Shown here: one piece after another, positions 13,728-49,878 of the stretch
Numbering within the stretch: the stretch's first letter is position 1
Layout: every line of letters begins with the position of its first letter
NCBI GenBank assembly: GCA_029881995.1
Contig: JAOULO010000002.1
Coordinates: 62,001-126,000 of the forward strand
Length of the DNA: 64,000 nucleotides
Direction of reading: 5' to 3'
Origin: Gammaproteobacteria bacterium
GTDB taxonomy: Bacteria; Pseudomonadota; Gammaproteobacteria; UBA6429; Thiohalophilaceae
Program-made: the position numbers and the translations under genes
The notes under the pieces: model-generated
The model's input: only the letters and a program-made list of their open reading frames with translations
What the model was told of the DNA's origin: nothing
The model's database searches: none

Positions 13728-14279
13728 ATGGCCCATTTTTTCGGTATGACAGAGCAAATTGTTCAGGTTAAGGGGATCGACCTCAAGCTGGTGTCCCGCT
13801 TTGCCCTTTATACCAGTATTGTTGCCGTAGTCATGTTGGTGTTAAGTGTCCTGTTTCTCACAGACAAGATGGGGACAAGTTATGCTGAAATCATTTATGC
13901 CCACAGTTTCACACAAAAACACCTCAAACCAGTCCTGTTAATCAGTGGGCTTTGTCTACTGTCGTTTATTGCATTTATCACCTGGCTGTTCACGATTTAT
14001 TCCACCTTCAGAATTGCCGGACCCCTATATCGATTCAGCCGCAATCTTGAACAGGCCGCAGAAGGCATTCCACCAATAGGTGTGCGTAAGGATGATGCTT
14101 TACAGGATGTATCTGACCAGCTTAAACAAAGTGTCGGCAGTTTACATAATCACTATCGAGCGATAGATAAACAAATAAATGAACTGCTCTATCAAATTGA
14201 TATCAAGGATGAAAGCTCACTGGATAACAATCTGGCAAAGCTAAAGGAGTTACTGGAGAAGGCACGAATTGATGGTTAG
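13728..14279 (+). CDS. Two-helix membrane protein with HAMP-like segment, multihaem cluster partner
   Basis: 183 residues: a cytoplasmic start, a first membrane helix (SIVAVVMLVLSVLFL), an external loop of about 40 residues, a second helix (VLLISGLCLLSFIAFITWLF), then IYSTFRIAGPLYRFSRNLEQ, which resembles the start of a HAMP linker, and a charged helical tail. This is the layout of a chemoreceptor or histidine kinase sensor half without an output domain. It overlaps the heptahaem cytochrome gene at 14272. A second protein of the same length and layout follows that cytochrome (15054-15605). Similar small membrane proteins are found next to multihaem cytochromes, where they may act as anchors or assembly factors; that is inference. 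Confidence 0.6.
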   Translation: MAHFFGMTEQIVQVKGIDLKLVSRFALYTSIVAVVMLVLSVLFLTDKMGTSYAEIIYAHSFTQKHLKPVLLISGLCLLSFIAFITWLFTIYSTFRIAGPLYRFSRNLEQAAEGIPPIGVRKDDALQDVSDQLKQSVGSLHNHYRAIDKQINELLYQIDIKDESSLDNNLAKLKELLEKARIDG

Positions 14280-30953: not shown

Positions 30954-31135
30954 TGCGCAGAATCCTATCTTTTACAAAACTTATTCCAAAGTTGTAAACA
31001 CCCGAGCACAGCGAGTGTATATACGGTAGGTTGAACGATATCTGGTGAAACCTGGTTGTTGTTCTTCAGCCTATATCCTTAATTGCAATGTAATAATAAT
31101 GTGAGTCAATGCATTGCGCGGACAAGGGGGTGGTT

Positions 31136-34100
31136 ATGAAATACCTTGGTCACATACTTATAACAGCTACCATCATGGTGCTGTCCTTTTCCTCAGCACA
31201 GGCTTTTAATTATGGCAAAATAGATGCCTCAAAAGGTGTTGCCTGTAATGCCTGTCATTCGGGTGGAATCGCCCCTACTGTAACATTAACCGGGCCAGAA
31301 ACAGTGACGCCCGGAACGGTGAATCGTTACACCTTAACCTTGTCTGGCGGGCAGCAGAATCAGGGTGGGATGAATGTCTCTGCAACGGATGGTTCATTGT
31401 TTGTAGTTTCCCCTGGTCTATGGAAAACCAATAATCAGATCCATCATAATAACCCTGCGGTTGCCAATGCAAACGGAGTCATTAGCTGGGAGTTTGACTG
31501 GCAGGCTCCGACAACGGACTCAACTTCAGTTATTTATGCTGCTGGTCTATCCACCGATAACTCAGCCTCAGAAGCAGGTGATGCCGCTACTACGGTATCA
31601 CTGACCGTTACGGTTGGTGCTGGTGGAGATGGTAACCCACCTGCTGAGACTGGTGAGACTCTTTATGTCGATAATTGCCAAAGTTGCCATCTTGCTGCAC
31701 CTGGAACCAAGGCAGGTAGATCAGCTGCACTTATACAGCAGGCCATTGATGATAATGCTGGTACAGTGATGGGCTCATTGAGCTTTCTTTCCCCAACTCA
31801 GGTACAGTTAATTGCTGATTTTCTGGCAGGAGATCCAAATGCACCTCAAGCACCGGTTGCCAATCCTGGTGGACCTTATACTGCAGCTTTAGGTGATCAA
31901 ATCCTGTTTGATGGCAGTGCTTCCTCTGATATAGATGGCACTATCACAAACTATGAATGGGACTTTGGTGATGGGAATACAGCCACGGGCGCGAATCCTG
32001 CCCATACCTATGCAGCAGTAGGGACATATACCGTCCAGTTAAAGGTAACTGACAATAGTGGCATGACACATACTGCCAGTACTACGGCAAATGTAGCAGA
32101 AGGGACACCACCTGATCCGGTTTATGATGGTGTGGCCCTGTACACTGCAAACTGTTCAGCTTGTCATAGTCCTCTGGTGTCTAGCACCAAGGCCGGGCGA
32201 AATGCTGCACAGATTCAAAATGCCATTAACAATAACATTGGTGGAATGGGAGCCCAGAATCTGGGGTTAATTAATCTGATCCCAGCTGAAGTCGATGCTA
32301 TTGCACTTGCTTTGGGTGGAGGGTCGTCACAAACACCACCAACTGCAAATCCTGGATCAGGGTATTCAGGTGTGATTAATACTCCTGTCCAGTTTGATGG
32401 CAGTGCCTCAAGTGATATTGATGGCACCATCGCTCAGTACGCCTGGGACTTTGGTGACAACAATATTGGAAGCGGTGTGTCACCCACACATACCTATGTG
32501 ACTACAGGTCTGTTTACAGTCACACTGACAGTGACTGATAACGATGGACTGACACATACAGCAACTACCACAGCCAATATTGGAAGTGGAACACCACCAC
32601 CTCCAGTGCTTGATGGTCTGGCGTTATATGGAACAAATTGTTCTAACTGTCATGGTGCAGCACCGGGAACCAAGGCCGGTCGTTCCGCCAATGATATTGC
32701 ACTGGCCATTACCAATGTTCCTGCGATGAACAGCATCTCCCTAACAACGGAAGAGCTTACTGCTATAGCAGATGCAATCGCCAATGGAGGACCGCCTGCC
32801 ACTGATGGGAAAGGTCTCTACAACAGCTATTGTGCCAGTTGTCATGGTGCAGGCGGTGAGGGCGGAACAGAAGAAGCTGTGACAGGAGAATCTGCTAAAT
32901 CAATCATTGATGCCATTGATGAAGAGAATGAGATGAAATATCTCGATGCTTTGTTGAGCAGTGAGCAGATTGACTTGATCGCCGATTATCTAAATGGTGA
33001 AACCGGTAGTAATGATACTGTCACTGTCACGAAAAAGTCCCAGTATGATCTCTACTGTGGCGCGTGTCATGGAGCTGAAGGAAAAGGTGGCGCCGAAGAA
33101 GGGGTTCGCGGTGAAAGTGTAAGTGGTATCAACAAAGCGATCACTGAAGAAACCGAGATGAATTATCTCTCGAATCTTGGCGATAACATCGTCCAGGCGA
33201 TATCCGATTACCTGAATGGAGATAATGACGGCACCATCGAAATTCCTGCACCAACGGGACCGGTTGATGGTCTGGCTTTATACGGCAACTACTGTTCAGG
33301 TTGTCATGGCGCAGCCCCTGGTACCAAGGCAGGTCGGACACAGGCCGATATTCTGACTGCTATCCAGAACGTACCTTCCATGAATGGTCTGGGTAATATG
33401 TCTGCTGCTGAAGTACAGGCGATTGCCGATGCGATTGCAACCACGGGTGGTGGAGGCACCGGTGGTGGTGGTACTGGCGGAGGGACCGGTGGTACCCCCG
33501 ATGGTAATCAGCTGTATGCCGATAACTGTGCCGGTTGTCATGGCAATGCTCCTGGCACCAAGGCGGGTCGTACTCAGGCCGATATCCTGGCTGCTATCCA
33601 AAACGTACCTTCCATGAATGGCCTGGGTAATCTGTCTGCTGGAGAAGTGCAGGCGATTGCTGATGCGATTGCTACCACAGGCGGTGGTAACACACCTGCG
33701 CCGACTTCACCTGAAGGGCTCTATGTGTCCTACTGTGGTTCATGCCACGGTGCAGATGGAAGTGGTGGATTATACGAAGGTGTGCTTGGCGCCACAGCCG
33801 GTGAGATTCGTGATGCAATCAATAATGAAGCGGATATGAACTATCTGCAGGCTTTACTCGCAGACAGTACAATCGACTTGATTGCTCAATATCTCAGTGG
33901 TGATGGTGACGGAGGGACTGGGGGAGGAACCGGTGGTGGTACTGGCGGAGGAACCGGTGGTGGCTCCCCGGATGGTAACCAGCTGTATGCTGATAACTGT
34001 GCCGGTTGTCATGGCAATGCCCCTGGCACCAAGGCCGGAAGTACCCAGGCCAATATTCTGGCCGCCATCCAGAATGTACCCTCTATGAATGGGATAAGTT

Positions 34101-34813
34101 TGACCGATGCTGAAGTTCAGGCCATCGCTGATGCCATTTCGTCGACTGGAGGAGGTACAGGTGGTGGCACTGGCGGAGGCACTGGCGGAGGCACTGGCGG
34201 AGGCACTGGTGGTGGAACCGGAGGTACCTTCGATGGTGATCAGCTATATGCCGATAACTGTGCCGGTTGTCATGGCAATGCTCCTGGCACCAAGGCGGGT
34301 CGTACTCAGGCCGATATCCTGGCTGCTATCCAGAACGTACCTTCCATGAATGGTCTGGGTAATCTGTCGGCTGCTGAAGTGCAGGCGATTGCCGATGCGA
34401 TAGGTGGTGGTACAACTACAACTCCGACAACTCCAGAAGAGTTATATAATGCCTATTGTCTGGCCTGTCATGGTTCAGAAGGTAATGGAGGCACTGAGGA
34501 GGCTGTCAGAGGGTCATCGTCGGCAGACATATCCGATGCCATTAACAAAGAAACCGAAATGACCTACCTGAAAAACATGCTAAGTGATAGCGAAATTAGC
34601 GCCATTGCTGAATATCTGGGTGGTAACAGGCAGGAATCACGGCCCTCTCAGTCGAGTAGCAGAGAGGAGTCAGATAATAGACGTGCCTGGTGGCAACGCC
34701 TGTTCGGTGGCAATATGAATGGCTCAGGCGGTGCAGGTGCGTTTGGTGTAATGGAGTTATTTATCCTTATGATGGTATTACTTGGTCGGTTGGGTATTCG
34801 TAAGTTTAATTAA
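31136..34813 (+). CDS. Giant 12-haem surface cytochrome with PKD domains and GlyGly-CTERM-like anchor
   Basis: 1225 residues. The ATG at 31136, with GGGGG 6 bases upstream, gives a clean signal peptide (LSFSSAQA). Order: a haem-bearing first domain (VACNACHSGG) resembling Reeler or choice-of-anchor V domains; repeated single-haem cytochrome c domains of about 70-90 residues (YADNCAGCHGNAPGTKAGRT, also YCGSCHGADGSGG type); two PKD domains (FDGSASSDIDGTI, WDFGDGNT). Eleven further CXXCH motifs make 12 in all. Gly/Thr linkers (GTGG repeats) separate the later domains. The end, GSGGAGAFGVMELFILMM then GRLGIRKFN, looks like a GlyGly-CTERM sorting signal cut by rhombosortase. It is probably a surface-displayed electron relay or adhesin, with its own promoter and terminator. 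Confidence 0.85.
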   Translation: MKYLGHILITATIMVLSFSSAQAFNYGKIDASKGVACNACHSGGIAPTVTLTGPETVTPGTVNRYTLTLSGGQQNQGGMNVSATDGSLFVVSPGLWKTNNQIHHNNPAVANANGVISWEFDWQAPTTDSTSVIYAAGLSTDNSASEAGDAATTVSLTVTVGAGGDGNPPAETGETLYVDNCQSCHLAAPGTKAGRSAALIQQAIDDNAGTVMGSLSFLSPTQVQLIADFLAGDPNAPQAPVANPGGPYTAALGDQILFDGSASSDIDGTITNYEWDFGDGNTATGANPAHTYAAVGTYTVQLKVTDNSGMTHTASTTANVAEGTPPDPVYDGVALYTANCSACHSPLVSSTKAGRNAAQIQNAINNNIGGMGAQNLGLINLIPAEVDAIALALGGGSSQTPPTANPGSGYSGVINTPVQFDGSASSDIDGTIAQYAWDFGDNNIGSGVSPTHTYVTTGLFTVTLTVTDNDGLTHTATTTANIGSGTPPPPVLDGLALYGTNCSNCHGAAPGTKAGRSANDIALAITNVPAMNSISLTTEELTAIADAIANGGPPATDGKGLYNSYCASCHGAGGEGGTEEAVTGESAKSIIDAIDEENEMKYLDALLSSEQIDLIADYLNGETGSNDTVTVTKKSQYDLYCGACHGAEGKGGAEEGVRGESVSGINKAITEETEMNYLSNLGDNIVQAISDYLNGDNDGTIEIPAPTGPVDGLALYGNYCSGCHGAAPGTKAGRTQADILTAIQNVPSMNGLGNMSAAEVQAIADAIATTGGGGTGGGGTGGGTGGTPDGNQLYADNCAGCHGNAPGTKAGRTQADILAAIQNVPSMNGLGNLSAGEVQAIADAIATTGGGNTPAPTSPEGLYVSYCGSCHGADGSGGLYEGVLGATAGEIRDAINNEADMNYLQALLADSTIDLIAQYLSGDGDGGTGGGTGGGTGGGTGGGSPDGNQLYADNCAGCHGNAPGTKAGSTQANILAAIQNVPSMNGISLTDAEVQAIADAISSTGGGTGGGTGGGTGGGTGGGTGGGTGGTFDGDQLYADNCAGCHGNAPGTKAGRTQADILAAIQNVPSMNGLGNLSAAEVQAIADAIGGGTTTTPTTPEELYNAYCLACHGSEGNGGTEEAVRGSSSADISDAINKETEMTYLKNMLSDSEISAIAEYLGGNRQESRPSQSSSREESDNRRAWWQRLFGGNMNGSGGAGAFGVMELFILMMVLLGRLGIRKFN
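34150..34226 (+). repeat. 12-base minisatellite inside the giant cytochrome gene
   Basis: Tandem copies of GGCACTGGCGGA (and GGT/GGA variants) encode a Gly-Thr-Gly-Gly linker. Shorter tracts of the same unit occur near 33450-33495 and 33915-33965. Copy number can change by slippage in multiples of 12 bases without a frameshift, so linker length is likely to vary between strains. Confidence 0.85.
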
Positions 34814-46236: not shown

Positions 46237-46785
46237 GTGCGAGTTAGAAGCAAGTGGAGCAAGCGCGACAAGACCCATTCGGTTGAAGAAGTGGCCGGGG
46301 CCCTGGCCTTTATAGCCTTTCGTATCGCCGGCAATGCTGTGCTCAATATGGAAAACCATGAATACGAGACCGACAACCAGGCCCAGCGTCTGGACATCAT
46401 GAGTGAATTTCTGGCCTTCACCATCCACATCATCGACCGCATGACCATTGAGAAATTCGATGCAGAACAGCGTCAGCGTTTCATGATCGAACTGGCCCTC
46501 AAATCCGCCAAGCATATTGAAGACAATCGACGTGACGTCCAGGGCCCGGGTGACTACCGACAGGCCTTTATCGACATGCTCAATGAACGCATGGACGAAT
46601 ATTCAGACTGTGATTATGACGAGAAAGAAGGCGCCAGCTTTGTCATGCGACGCCTGTTTGGCGATCATGTCACCAAACTCATGGGTGAGAAACATAAGCA
46701 GTGGGTGACGGCGCAGGTTATTGATATTGAGGTGCCGGATTTATTCCGAACCTTGAATAAGTCGTTGCCGAATCTTTTTATGTAA
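46237..46785 (+). CDS. Conserved-type helical cytosolic protein, unknown function
   Basis: 182 residues from a GTG start (AAGAGG 9 bases upstream). Predicted almost entirely helical, rich in charged residues, with segments such as LDIMSEFLAFTIHIIDRM and GASFVMRRLFGDHVTKLM. No signal peptide or known motif. It is divergent from the Sfum_1244-like gene with an AT-rich 147-base region between. I do not recognise a family. Confidence 0.55.
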   Translation: MRVRSKWSKRDKTHSVEEVAGALAFIAFRIAGNAVLNMENHEYETDNQAQRLDIMSEFLAFTIHIIDRMTIEKFDAEQRQRFMIELALKSAKHIEDNRRDVQGPGDYRQAFIDMLNERMDEYSDCDYDEKEGASFVMRRLFGDHVTKLMGEKHKQWVTAQVIDIEVPDLFRTLNKSLPNLFM

Positions 46786-46910
46786 AACAAACGGATTGAA
46801 ATAAATATTAAATAGACTGACGATTTATTCGCAATGGAGAAAATCTGTCAAAAGCATATAAAACACATACAAGTGTTTCAATTCAGTCTTTTTGGTATAC
46901 TCATTCAGAT

Positions 46911-47855
46911 ATGCTATCAGACCTTTTAAAATTATTATATTTTCGATTTGGATATGTTGAACGAATTATTTTTACTATCGTCAAATGTTTTACATTTTTT
47001 CTGATATCAGGCACGACATATGCTGAGGAACAGATTGATAGTTCATCTATAGCAGTACGTGATGTCCTATCTGCTCAGGGTGAGTGGCAATTTGATATTG
47101 ATTATCTTTATTCTAACAATCAGTCCACGACAGTACACAGCGGTGGAGGCATAGGAGTTATCCAGTCCTCTAGCACTACAACAGAAAATTCATCTTTAAC
47201 TAAAAGCAGTTCAGATATTTTAATTATCTCACCCGCATTGCGTTATGGTTTGACAAGCGATACTGAAATAGCGCCTAGCATTTCCTGGCAGGCCTATCAA
47301 ACAAGAACACAAGAAAGAAATGCCGTAACAACGGAGAGTGGAGATAAACTAACCAGTCTTAACTTAGCCGTTAATCATCGTTTTACCAATAATGGGGCTC
47401 GTTCAGCAGTGATTGGTAGTTTCAATCTTAATCTTGCTGAGAATGTTGGAAAAGATAATGAAGAAATTGTCTATGGTCGTGCCTGGTCAGCCAGTGTCAC
47501 TGGCTTTCGGGTTTATGATCCCGTTGTTATGAGCGTTGCTGTCGGTTACCAGGAATTTCTTCAACGAAATGTCGACGGAGATATTGTAAATCCTGGTGAG
47601 ATTGTATTTGTTAATGGAGGGATAAACTTTGCAGCAAATAGCGATCTTAGTCTGAAAATGGGGTTTACATGGACTTATACCAGCAGAAACGAGATAAATG
47701 GGCAGAAACAGGGAATTGCTGTAACAACCACCAGCCTTGGTTTTGGTTTTGGTTATGAGTGGTCAGTCAACACACTGGTCTTCTTTGCTGTGAATACAGT
47801 AGTAAGTGGAGGCGAAGGGGCAACTATTTCGTTAAACACAAGTTATTATTTATAG
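46911..47855 (+). CDS. Outer-membrane beta-barrel (transporter-like) of the GG-peptide cassette
   Basis: 314 residues. A long basic start and a signal segment (CFTFFLISGTTYAEE), then regular amphipathic strands: GEWQFDIDYLYSNN, LIISPALRYGLTSDTEIAPSISW, KLTSLNLAVNHRF, SAVIGSFNLNLA, LSLKMGFTWTYTS, TTSLGFGFGYEWS. It fits a 12-stranded outer-membrane protein of the Phenol_MetA_deg/transporter type, and resembles the barrel part of FapF-like exporters in size. The end is SYYL rather than F. It converges on the C39 peptidase gene, with no base between the two stops. DNA here is visibly AT-richer than on both sides, which suggests gene gain. It may let the short peptides out of the periplasm; that is inference. 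Confidence 0.65.
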   Translation: MLSDLLKLLYFRFGYVERIIFTIVKCFTFFLISGTTYAEEQIDSSSIAVRDVLSAQGEWQFDIDYLYSNNQSTTVHSGGGIGVIQSSSTTTENSSLTKSSSDILIISPALRYGLTSDTEIAPSISWQAYQTRTQERNAVTTESGDKLTSLNLAVNHRFTNNGARSAVIGSFNLNLAENVGKDNEEIVYGRAWSASVTGFRVYDPVVMSVAVGYQEFLQRNVDGDIVNPGEIVFVNGGINFAANSDLSLKMGFTWTYTSRNEINGQKQGIAVTTTSLGFGFGYEWSVNTLVFFAVNTVVSGGEGATISLNTSYYL

Positions 47856-48527
47856 TTAATTCTGATGACCGGATTCAAGATTAACAAAATAATCCTGCCT
47901 AACAGATAGATTCTTATTATCGGATGGAAGCACTAACAGAATTTTACCTTTATGAGTCTTAGTTCCCCGAACTTCCCACTTTTCTCGAAATTTTTCGACT
48001 GGATATTTATTATTTCCACTGGCTGGATCGGCGACCCACACTGTATGCTTATCTATCCCTCTTAATACGGCAAAGTGTGGCCCAGCCCAGGTGTGAAAAT
48101 AAATGATCACCGGAATTTTTAACTGTGTAAGCTGTTCATAATCAAGTGCTAGACCGATTCCTTTTAGCCCCCATTGAGGAAGTGAGGATTTCATATCAGC
48201 CATGGACAACCAACTATTTTTTCCTATAGCAGTGAGTACATCTTTTTCTGTTACATTCAGCCCGTAGTAATAGGTTAACAACGTTGCTAGAGCAGCACTT
48301 CCACAGGAGAAATCTAGCTCCTGCATGATGATTTTTTTATTTCTAGTGGCTTTCCAAGATTGAACAGATAGATCACCGTTTAAATGAATGCCTACCGAAG
48401 TAGGTTGTGTATGTGCAGCCCCAGAAAGTGCCCAAAAGACAGACGCCATCGCATACATTAATTTTATGCGATTCAAACTATCACTAACATGACCTGATGT
48501 CATGGAGCTTTCGCACATTATCATCAT
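47856..48527 (-). CDS. Sec-exported C39-family peptidase without ABC transporter
   Basis: 223 residues. A hydrophobic segment (LMYAMASVFWALSGAAH) works as a signal peptide, perhaps from a start nearer to it. The C39 catalytic set is complete: glutamine 69 and cysteine 75 in MQELDFSCGSAALATLL, histidine 151 in GPHFAVLRGI, aspartate 167 in VADPASG. C39 enzymes cut after double-glycine leaders, usually as part of bacteriocin ABC exporters; stand-alone periplasmic forms are known in Fap amyloid (FapD) and Acinetobacter Fil clusters. Here no ABC protein is present. The gene lies 72 bases after the mini-protein gene at 48600-48809 in the same direction, and two similar mini-proteins are divergent. 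They are its obvious candidate substrates. Confidence 0.85.
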   Translation of the reverse strand: MMIMCESSMTSGHVSDSLNRIKLMYAMASVFWALSGAAHTQPTSVGIHLNGDLSVQSWKATRNKKIIMQELDFSCGSAALATLLTYYYGLNVTEKDVLTAIGKNSWLSMADMKSSLPQWGLKGIGLALDYEQLTQLKIPVIIYFHTWAGPHFAVLRGIDKHTVWVADPASGNNKYPVEKFREKWEVRGTKTHKGKILLVLPSDNKNLSVRQDYFVNLESGHQN

Positions 48528-48599
48528 CCACGAGCATCAAATAATATTGCTAAAACTTTAGGTAATGAACATATTTCTGTCGTAATTCAACTTTGATAA

Positions 48600-48809
48600 T
48601 TAGCCTATTATGTGCAAAACAGGAGAACCTCCAACTGTATTTTTATGTTCTTCTTCTGTGAGAGGGGTAACATTGATTGTTTTTTCTTTAGATTCAAAAG
48701 CAGATTGAATATTGCTCTGTTTCACAGCGTCTTCATATTTTTCAGGCTCTGAGGCACTAACGGAAAATGCTGTGCTAAGAAAGACAAAATAGACAATTGA
48801 ATTGCGCAT
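48600..48809 (-). CDS. Sec-exported mini-protein with GG motif (peptide 1)
   Basis: 69 residues: signal peptide VYFVFLSTAFSVSA, a hydrophilic spacer, and at residues 50-61 LTEEEHKNTVGG, leaving a tail of 8 residues (SPVLHIIG). The motif fits the double-glycine leader rule L-S/T-x-x-E-x-x-x-x-I/V-G-G of C39 substrates. The position of L50 and G60-G61 is the same as in peptide 2. It is the first gene of an operon with the C39 peptidase and has a ribosome site (GGAGAG). If cut after GG, an octapeptide would be released in the periplasm. Confidence 0.7.
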   Translation of the reverse strand: MRNSIVYFVFLSTAFSVSASEPEKYEDAVKQSNIQSAFESKEKTINVTPLTEEEHKNTVGGSPVLHIIG

Positions 48810-48958
48810 GATTACTCTCCTTTGTAATTTACGAAAATTGTTGTTTTCAGCAGATCTTGCGATAGATTATTTATTAATCTCTACATCTTAAAGTTTAACC
48901 AATTTACAATGATAATTCGACGGTATAAGTAACGTAGTTCGCAAAAATTTAAAGTATT

Positions 48959-48973
48959 ATATGATAATCATAT
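48959..48973. promoter_or_regulatory. 15-base palindrome between divergent GG-peptide genes
   Basis: ATATGATAATCATAT is a perfect palindrome with an odd centre in the 252-base AT-rich region between peptide 1 (start 48809) and peptide 2 (start 49062). It could be an operator controlling both directions. It has some likeness to part of a Fur box, but it is too short and AT-rich to assign. Confidence 0.35.
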
Positions 48974-49061
48974 TATTTAACTACTTACTAAATTAATATG
49001 GTTTAGAATAGAATATGGGGAAAGGCTGCAATTAACAGCAATTAATTTAAGGAGAATAATT

Positions 49062-49277
49062 ATGCGTTACTTAACATTATTGATATGTCTGATGGGGTTG
49101 TCATTTGCAATAAATGCTGCAGAAATGTCCAACCAAAAAAGTGATAAAGTAAAGAATAAAGTCTCATCAGCTTTTAGCCGTAGTATAAATTCTTCAAAGT
49201 CTGTAATTTTATCTGATGATGAATTGAAGAAGACGATTGGTGGAATAATTGCAGTGAAGAACGGGCAACCATTATAA
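49062..49277 (+). CDS. Sec-exported mini-protein with GG motif (peptide 2)
   Basis: 71 residues: signal peptide (LLICLMGLSFAINA), a Lys/Ser-rich spacer (NKVSSAFSRSINSSKS), then LSDDELKKTIGG at residues 50-61, a near-perfect double-glycine leader motif, and a 10-residue tail IIAVKNGQPL. It has an excellent ribosome site (AAGGAGAATAATT before ATG). Classical bacteriocin precursors have no Sec signal in front of the leader, so this is a hybrid layout. Co-transcribed with peptide 3 (42 bases apart). Confidence 0.72.
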   Translation: MRYLTLLICLMGLSFAINAAEMSNQKSDKVKNKVSSAFSRSINSSKSVILSDDELKKTIGGIIAVKNGQPL

Positions 49278-49319
49278 CTTGAACTTGAGTGTTGGTGATT
49301 AGTAACCCAAAAAAGGAGG

Positions 49320-49550
49320 ATGGTGATGAAAATGATGTTTGTAACAATATGTAGCCTTGGAATGAGCTGTTTTGCTTATGCTGAAGGAAAGATTGAAAAT
49401 ACCGATGGTGTGCCCGAGGCTGATATCAGAACTGTATTTGTGAATGATGACAAGATAGATGTAAAAAAGATGACGAATATTGAGTTAAAAGAGTCAGTTG
49501 CTGGGTCAGAAAATAATTTCGATCGAGGCTCAGCCTTATCGATCCAGTGA
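49320..49550 (+). CDS. Sec-exported mini-protein with degenerate GG motif (peptide 3)
   Basis: 76 residues: signal peptide (FVTICSLGMSCFAYA), an acidic spacer, then MTNIELKESVAG at residues 51-62, where the double glycine is Ala-Gly (also accepted by C39 enzymes), and a 14-residue tail SENNFDRGSALSIQ. The spacing of signal, spacer and motif matches peptides 1 and 2 within one residue. It starts after AAAAAGGAGGATG and is followed by a terminator, so peptides 2 and 3 form a short transcript. Confidence 0.65.
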   Translation: MVMKMMFVTICSLGMSCFAYAEGKIENTDGVPEADIRTVFVNDDKIDVKKMTNIELKESVAGSENNFDRGSALSIQ

Positions 49551-49623
49551 GCAAGTTATAATTACCTACTAAAGCCGATGCGATCGAGAAGCTCTGGTTA
49601 GGACGACAGTTGTCGTAACATAA

Positions 49624-49651
49624 AAAAAGGCGGGTTAAACCCCGCCTTTTT
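49624..49651. terminator. Bidirectional rho-independent terminator
   Basis: AAAAAGGCGGG and CCCGCCTTTTT form a stem around a 6-base loop, with A and T tracts on both sides. It lies between the peptide 3 gene and the convergent gene ending at 49678 and can serve both. Confidence 0.9.
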
Positions 49652-49677: not shown

Positions 49678-49878
49678 TTACTTAACCCAGTTTTTGTAGC
49701 CGTCAGTCACACCGTTTGTACCGTCTTCGTAACCGGCATTGTAGGCGTCATTAACACGCTGTTCTTCACGAACTGGATTGACCAGGAAACCACCTTGCCA
49801 ACCTTGCAGGTATTCGGGATCTACACCGGCGCCTTCCATTTCAACAACTGTCTTGTGATAAACATCTAAGTTATGCAT
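49678..49878 (-). CDS. Small conserved-looking protein with repeated GY/GW-G motifs
   Basis: 66 residues with a strong ribosome site (AGGAGAAAACCT before ATG). Contains WQGGFLVNP and AYNAGYEDGTNGVTDGY, short glycine/aromatic repeats slightly like the GYxAGxxG helix of ribosome modulation factor; I do not claim homology. No cysteine, signal or membrane segment. It converges on the bidirectional terminator and has its own upstream region. Function unknown. Confidence 0.55.
   Translation of the reverse strand: MHNLDVYHKTVVEMEGAGVDPEYLQGWQGGFLVNPVREEQRVNDAYNAGYEDGTNGVTDGYKNWVK

Follow-up and report, generated by a model that had tools for sequence, protein, structure and literature searches.

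The locus raises the question of whether a stand-alone C39 peptidase, three small proteins with signal peptides and a barrel protein, encoded together in a gammaproteobacterial genome, form a route for the secretion of short peptides, and whether this route is new, as a preliminary description of this DNA had proposed. The window, being the whole stretch of 64,000 nucleotides that was analyzed, is part of a 3.5-Mb genome assembled in 132 contigs, on which the whole-genome searches are based. Direct translation and the list of open reading frames bear out the coordinates, catalytic residues, motif and tail lengths (8, 10, and 14 residues) given in that description. The island that carries these genes is best read as a hemocin/Nap-type cassette for peptide secretion by way of Sec, a C39 peptidase and a FapF-like channel, and we give this reading a probability of about 0.77. 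The kind of pathway is not new: it is that of hemocin and of the nap island, mechanistically related to Fap, and the co-localization of fapD and fapF homologues has already been noted, in five further phyla, by Rouse and colleagues (PMC6173800). The window cassette is a divergent variant, with the shortest intact tails seen and without an immunity gene (Table 1).

Table 1. The cassette, its predicted peptides and its borders, in window coordinates
Feature	Position	Strand	Basis
Left flanking gene, conserved, 182 aa, unknown function	46237..46785	+	found in 12 other genomes
AT-rich inserted island with the whole cassette	46786..49621	.	GC, homology breaks, flank adjacency
FapF-like 12-strand outer-membrane barrel, HmcD/NapF-type channel, 314 aa	46911..47855	+	profile, AlphaFold, Foldseek
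Stand-alone C39 double-glycine peptidase, 223 aa	47856..48527	-	Pfam, catalytic residues, AlphaFold, Foldseek
Mini-protein 1, 69 aa: Sec signal, NIQSAF-box spacer, leader LTEEEHKNTVGG, tail SPVLHIIG	48600..48809	-	translation, leader HMM, alignment A6
Mini-protein 1, predicted released tail, 8 aa	48603..48626	-	sequence; predicted cut after GG
Mini-protein 2, 71 aa: Sec signal, KVSSAF-box spacer, leader LSDDELKKTIGG, tail IIAVKNGQPL	49062..49277	+	translation, leader HMM, alignment A6
Mini-protein 2, predicted released tail, 10 aa	49245..49274	+	sequence; predicted cut after GG
Mini-protein 3, 76 aa: Sec signal, DIRTVF-box spacer, leader MTNIELKESVAG, tail SENNFDRGSALSIQ	49320..49550	+	translation, pattern, alignment A6
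Mini-protein 3, predicted released tail, 14 aa	49506..49547	+	sequence; predicted cut after AG
Terminator-like hairpin, island right edge, common to relatives	49624..49651	-	pattern scan; within right-hand homology block
Right flanking gene, conserved, Alvin_2107 family	49678..49878	-	NCBIfam NF049856, relatives

The island is 2.84 kb long, and its five open reading frames occupy positions 46,911 to 49,550 in the order barrel, peptidase, and mini-proteins 1, 2, and 3. The barrel and peptidase genes are convergent and meet end to end, mini-protein 1 is encoded upstream of the peptidase gene, and the genes of mini-proteins 2 and 3 diverge from that of mini-protein 1. The GC content of the island is 0.369, as compared with 0.437 and 0.468 in the two adjoining 10-kb segments, in agreement with the earlier remark that this DNA is AT-richer than its surroundings, and no stretch as low is found when 2.8-kb stretches are scanned every 200 bases across the window. 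The island is an insertion, because the two flanking genes (the right one matching NF049856 with 98.8 bits, cut-off 60) adjoin each other in 10 of the 12 relatives that hold both, at a distance of 71 to 182 bp between the matches. In a genome of the same genus (G001), the homologous sequence breaks off at about position 46,784 of the window and is taken up again at about 49,622; in G001 itself, about 30 bp separate the two homologous parts. The five-gene set has probably been imported by horizontal insertion. Only short and unremarkable direct or inverted repeats are found at the island edges, and the promoter scan is uninformative (12 sites, 9.6 expected). No viral-contig relative is detected by tblastn, and the phage records give weak matches only, annotated as C39-ABC transporters. 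Other inserted genes are seen at the same conserved gene pair in two relatives (L155 of G010 and L157 of G002), suggesting that this pair is an insertion hotspot; G010 has a different gene, of 258 aa, at the site, and in G002 the flanks are split between two contigs, on one of which a transposase-like gene is found close to the flank.

The peptidase matches the Peptidase_C39 family of Pfam (PF03412, 2.3e-21), and its signal segment is at about residues 17 to 34, as judged from the sequence and from the predicted helix of residues 17 to 34. None of the residues Q69, C75, H151, and D167 varies among the 79 homologues, so that the picture of a stand-alone enzyme with intact catalytic residues and a signal of its own holds. 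In the Foldseek comparison, its AlphaFold model (pLDDT 85) has the C39 domains of PCAT1, 6MPZ (solved with leader peptide) and ComA as best matches. The C39 relatives in genome contigs were found by an alignment-based search; a single-sequence search of these contigs with the C39 protein finds nothing. In the tree, the window enzyme is placed in a clade of 63 rows (support 100/99), which also holds enzymes of Neisseria, Helicobacter, Herbaspirillum, Acinetobacter and others, apart from 16 FapD-type and other rows; its branch is long (0.89), and by path length the row closest to it is that of locus L051. The whole-genome C39 search matches this enzyme only and detects no C39-ABC exporter, as is consistent with the earlier statement that an ABC transporter is lacking. 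The double-glycine leader and the C39 fold are shared with the class II microcins and the C39-ABC (PCAT) exporters, such as PCAT1 and ComA, but in the window cleavage would follow export by Sec, the enzyme has no ABC-transporter fusion, and the microcin-type type I system is replaced by an outer-membrane barrel. A class II microcin with type I secretion is rejected, the genome having a single, stand-alone C39 protein and the precursors having N-terminal signal peptides.

The barrel protein finds no match in single-sequence Pfam and NCBIfam scans. When the profile of its family (A2, 46 members) is compared with the PDB, FapF alone is significant (5o65, 5o67, and 5o68; E about 1e-26). The AlphaFold model (pLDDT 84) has an N-terminal signal helix, which is followed by disorder and then by the barrel, with 12 long strands by our count. 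The best Foldseek matches of this model are again FapF chains, with 5o67 at the top (best E 5e-14, TM 0.66–0.71), and after these come the COG4313 channel and autotransporter barrels. The FapF-type coiled coil is absent, and 314 residues are too few to hold one. Clearly, the barrel described earlier is a FapF homologue by profile and by fold.

The three mini-proteins share one layout, and a Shine-Dalgarno-like sequence precedes each of them. The double-glycine motif spans residues 50 to 61 in mini-proteins 1 and 2 and residues 51 to 62 in mini-protein 3. The preliminary description called all three GG-motif proteins; this is correct for mini-proteins 1 and 2, and in mini-protein 3 the pair is AG. 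Mini-protein 3 further departs from the leader by S at position -4, and mini-protein 1 has H at position -7 in place of the usual M or L. A leader HMM that was trained on other organisms only, with the window left out, places mini-protein 2 first (E 0.003) and mini-protein 1 second (E 0.005) among 409 open reading frames of the window. Mini-protein 3 (E 3.4) is not significant alone and fits by pattern, sharing the layout, including the F box, in alignment A6. Sec-exported precursors with a double-glycine-type leader are thus identified twice by an independent HMM and once by pattern. When the post-signal parts are shuffled, the motif, as a pattern set post hoc, is obtained in 1 to 3 of 200,000 trials per mini-protein. 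When the whole genome is searched with the precursor alignment, of which the three mini-proteins are themselves members, these three are the only matches. Their weak Pfam and NCBIfam matches (NADH5_C, SA1362, and others; E 0.03–0.2) are dismissed as noise.

Genes for a barrel, a C39 peptidase and a leader-bearing precursor recur together in many genomes, and the co-occurrence on which the preliminary description had staked its proposal is thus found. Uncharacterized relatives are numerous in Proteobacteria, Campylobacterota and Nitrospirota, with tails that are mostly longer and often Gly-rich; in RefSeq most of their barrels and precursors are named hypothetical. Around stand-alone C39 genes of other genomes, Sec-exported proteins have leaders such as ADASLIF-x11-LSQAEMKETEGA. 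The strict motif is found in 42 of 441 signal-bearing open reading frames within 2.5 kb of a C39 gene and in 0 of 311 beyond 4 kb (Fisher 9e-11, an indicative value, given that the list of reading frames is mechanical, the loci are not phylogenetically independent and an initial inspection of them preceded the final choice of pattern). The leader HMM gives 62 qualifying matches, all of them no more than 4 kb from a C39 gene, a count that is partly circular, as most training members are among the matches. About 46 loci yield no precursor when filtered by leader HMM, signal and score, which is due in part to contigs that stop upstream of the C39 gene or to loci of the Fap type.

The family shows considerable variety. 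The sponge symbiont AqS3 (G085; L032–L037) has seven paralogous precursor-C39-barrel cassettes, one barrel of which looks frame-broken; their leaders are similar and their tails, of roughly 25 to 300 aa, unrelated, in a polymorphic-cargo pattern. The 6.3-kb mobilizable Acinetobacter plasmid pTR11_4 (L195) encodes a barrel, a precursor, a 108-aa multi-TM protein and a C39 peptidase; the reading of its barrel is broken at the record ends, and barrel and precursor are unannotated. A Sulfuricurvum precursor (L090, 5807–6748) combines the same leader with a repetitive, Met/Gly-rich tail of 259 aa. In Neisseria weixii (L118, 5378–5925) the precursor has a tail of 4 aa and the Gly-rich cargo carries on in another frame, a split that reflects either phase variation or a sequencing error.

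These comparisons, and the identification of the barrel as a FapF homologue, support the route that was proposed earlier, and a path of export by Sec, periplasmic cleavage after GG or AG and exit by way of the barrel is a prediction with good support by analogy with Fap. The three precursors would be exported by Sec and their signal peptides removed. The periplasmic C39 peptidase would then read the leader, that is, a hydrophobic-x-x-x-F box and, about 10 to 11 residues on, [LM][ST]xxE[LH]xx[TS]x[GA]G, and would cut after the last glycine of the GG or AG pair. The released peptides SPVLHIIG, IIAVKNGQPL, and SENNFDRGSALSIQ would leave the cell through the FapF-like channel of 12 strands. These last steps, from the cut to the passage of the barrel and the release of the tails, are inferred from homology. 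Points that count against the cassette reading are the pattern-only assignment of mini-protein 3, the H at position -7 of mini-protein 1, the long branch of the C39 enzyme and the tails, which are far below the family median (about 75 aa).

Among the closest known systems is hemocin of Avibacterium, beside which haemocin of Haemophilus influenzae can be named. Plasmid p250 carries hmcD-C39-ATPase-hmcA-hmcI, the last encoding an annotated immunity protein, and the family HMMs used here match HmcD (barrel, 2e-30), its C39 protein (peptidase, 4e-34) and HmcA (leader, 9e-5). The window shares with this operon a FapF-like barrel (HmcD in the operon), a secreted C39 peptidase and a Sec-exported precursor with an F box and a leader of the LSQKEMSEVKGG type; in HmcA this leader precedes a 40-aa tail. 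Hemocin has one cationic cargo of 40 aa together with ATPase and immunity genes, whereas the window has three cargos of 8 to 14 aa and neither gene. The Neisseria nap island, described in 2025, encodes the GG peptides NapABC, the C39 peptidase NapP and the FapF-like NapF (PMC11798529), and has in common with the window island the three GG peptides, the C39 peptidase, the FapF-like channel and a low GC content over about 3 kb. It also has napR, napH, and napI, counterparts of which are absent from the window island. The Naps are cationic, helical peptides of 36, 16, and 31 aa (PMC11798529); the window tails are shorter and, as a set, not cationic. In the gonococcal stretches examined here (L116, L197, and L199) the peptidase or the barrel is found and no NapABC is recognized.

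What the peptides of this cassette do is a separate matter. Our tentative preference, held at somewhat under even odds, is that they are short extracellular signals rather than bacteriocins, because the tails are tiny, are not clearly cationic and come without an immunity gene; the finding of no receptor or regulator in the island counts against such a role. That they are genuine bacteriocins like hemocin, with immunity provided by an unrecognized or unlinked gene, is rather unlikely. Hemocin is indeed annotated with an immunity protein, many relatives encode a small protein of two to four TM segments just after the precursor, between it and the C39 gene, which in our judgement resembles immunity proteins, and the seven AqS3 cassettes, with common leaders and unrelated tails, follow a polymorphic-toxin pattern. 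However, an immunity gene beside the precursor, present in hemocin and in many but not all relatives, is not found in the window island, where the open reading frames include no immunity-like gene nor any further likely gene; the 8- to 14-residue tails, with charges of -1.5 to +0.8, are near neutral or acidic and have no Gly-zipper, and the gonococcal Naps that were studied did not kill competitors (PMC11798529). Very short cargo without an immunity gene may be what sets this cassette apart as unusual.

It is less likely still that the cassette is a decaying bacteriocin locus, in which parts of the cargo were lost and the leaders left with stubs. The window tails are shorter than those of every intact relative found, and the Neisseria weixii precursor shows how a tail can be cut short by a change of frame; shorter tails elsewhere are this case, explained by a frameshift, and L093, with an apparent early stop or frame break. 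Against decay, three separate reading frames retain start, Shine-Dalgarno-like sequence, signal and leader, and neither the peptidase nor the barrel is disrupted. With gaps of about 40 to 75 bp behind the mini-proteins, there is too little space for a long tail hidden in another frame, which is thus excluded. Moreover, the tails are short (about 23–29 aa) at L051 too, a locus with a convergent C39/barrel pair, precursors on both strands and no recognized immunity gene. A Nap-like role, in which the peptides promote stationary-phase lysis of the producer's own population, is improbable: the architecture is matched, with three short peptides, a C39 peptidase, a FapF-like channel and a low-GC island (PMC11798529), but the window tails are shorter than the cationic, helical Naps of 16 to 36 aa and mostly neutral or acidic, and the napR, napH, and napI counterparts are missing.

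The Fap system of Pseudomonas (FapD, FapF, and FapE) shares with the window a periplasmic C39 peptidase and a 12-strand FapF channel, and differs in its amyloid cargo, the coiled coil of FapF and the C39 clade. The comparison with Fap and Fil suggested earlier thus holds for the channel and peptidase types; it fails for the models, as the window C39 enzyme scores 83 bits with FapD (cut-off 330) and 65.6 bits with FilB (cut-off 475). It is very improbable that the island encodes a Fap or Fil amyloid or pilus system: these matches and the FapF-like barrel point that way, but the scores are far below the cut-offs, the island proteins match neither the FapE and FapF models nor the FapA/B/C/E subunits, the C39 enzyme is outside the FapD-type clade, the barrel has no coiled-coil region and long subunit genes are absent. 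The possibility that the mini-proteins are unrelated periplasmic proteins with a motif by chance is practically negligible: in its favor, mini-protein 3 by itself lacks significance; against it, the motif is rare in shuffles and co-occurs with C39 genes, mini-proteins 2 and 1 rank at the top with the leader HMM, and the F-box spacing is common to the mini-proteins.

The role of FapD in secretion needs its periplasmic location and its catalytic cysteine (PMC5557850). The FapD substrate was left open by the 2017 and 2018 Fap papers, in which N-terminal FapE peptides are missing in mass spectrometry (PMC5557850; PMC6173800). In most sampled fap loci, the FapE proteins have [LI]xxxE[LM]xx[LM]RG[RK], with small variations, soon after the signal peptide, at the place of the C39 leader (L038, L042, L045, L046, L170–L172, L174–L176, L180, L183–L185, L191, L193, and L194). 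This suggests that FapD may cut FapE at the RG[RK] motif, a candidate cleavage site. A wider proposal, somewhat unlikely as a whole, is that the window cassette is a Gram-negative counterpart of pheromone export, with signals of 8 to 14 residues in a distinct short-peptide branch of the hemocin/Nap systems, and that stand-alone periplasmic C39 enzymes, including FapD, read one common leader after Sec export.

For the hemocin/Nap-type reading, one testable rule, being Sec export, a periplasmic double-glycine cut and a FapF-like barrel, would apply to hemocin, Neisseria nap, Fap and many unannotated sets, and the cassette would be a small model system for leader recognition by such peptidases. 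Should the tails of 8 to 14 residues in fact be released, they would be of unusually small size for ribosomal peptides that leave a Gram-negative cell by this barrel route. Elsewhere in the window, positions 14,269 to 38,968 encode a long series of proteins that are either beta-propeller-like or, with CxxCH motifs, multiheme cytochrome-like, and the protein encoded at 31,109 to 34,813 has many cytochrome-c repeats.
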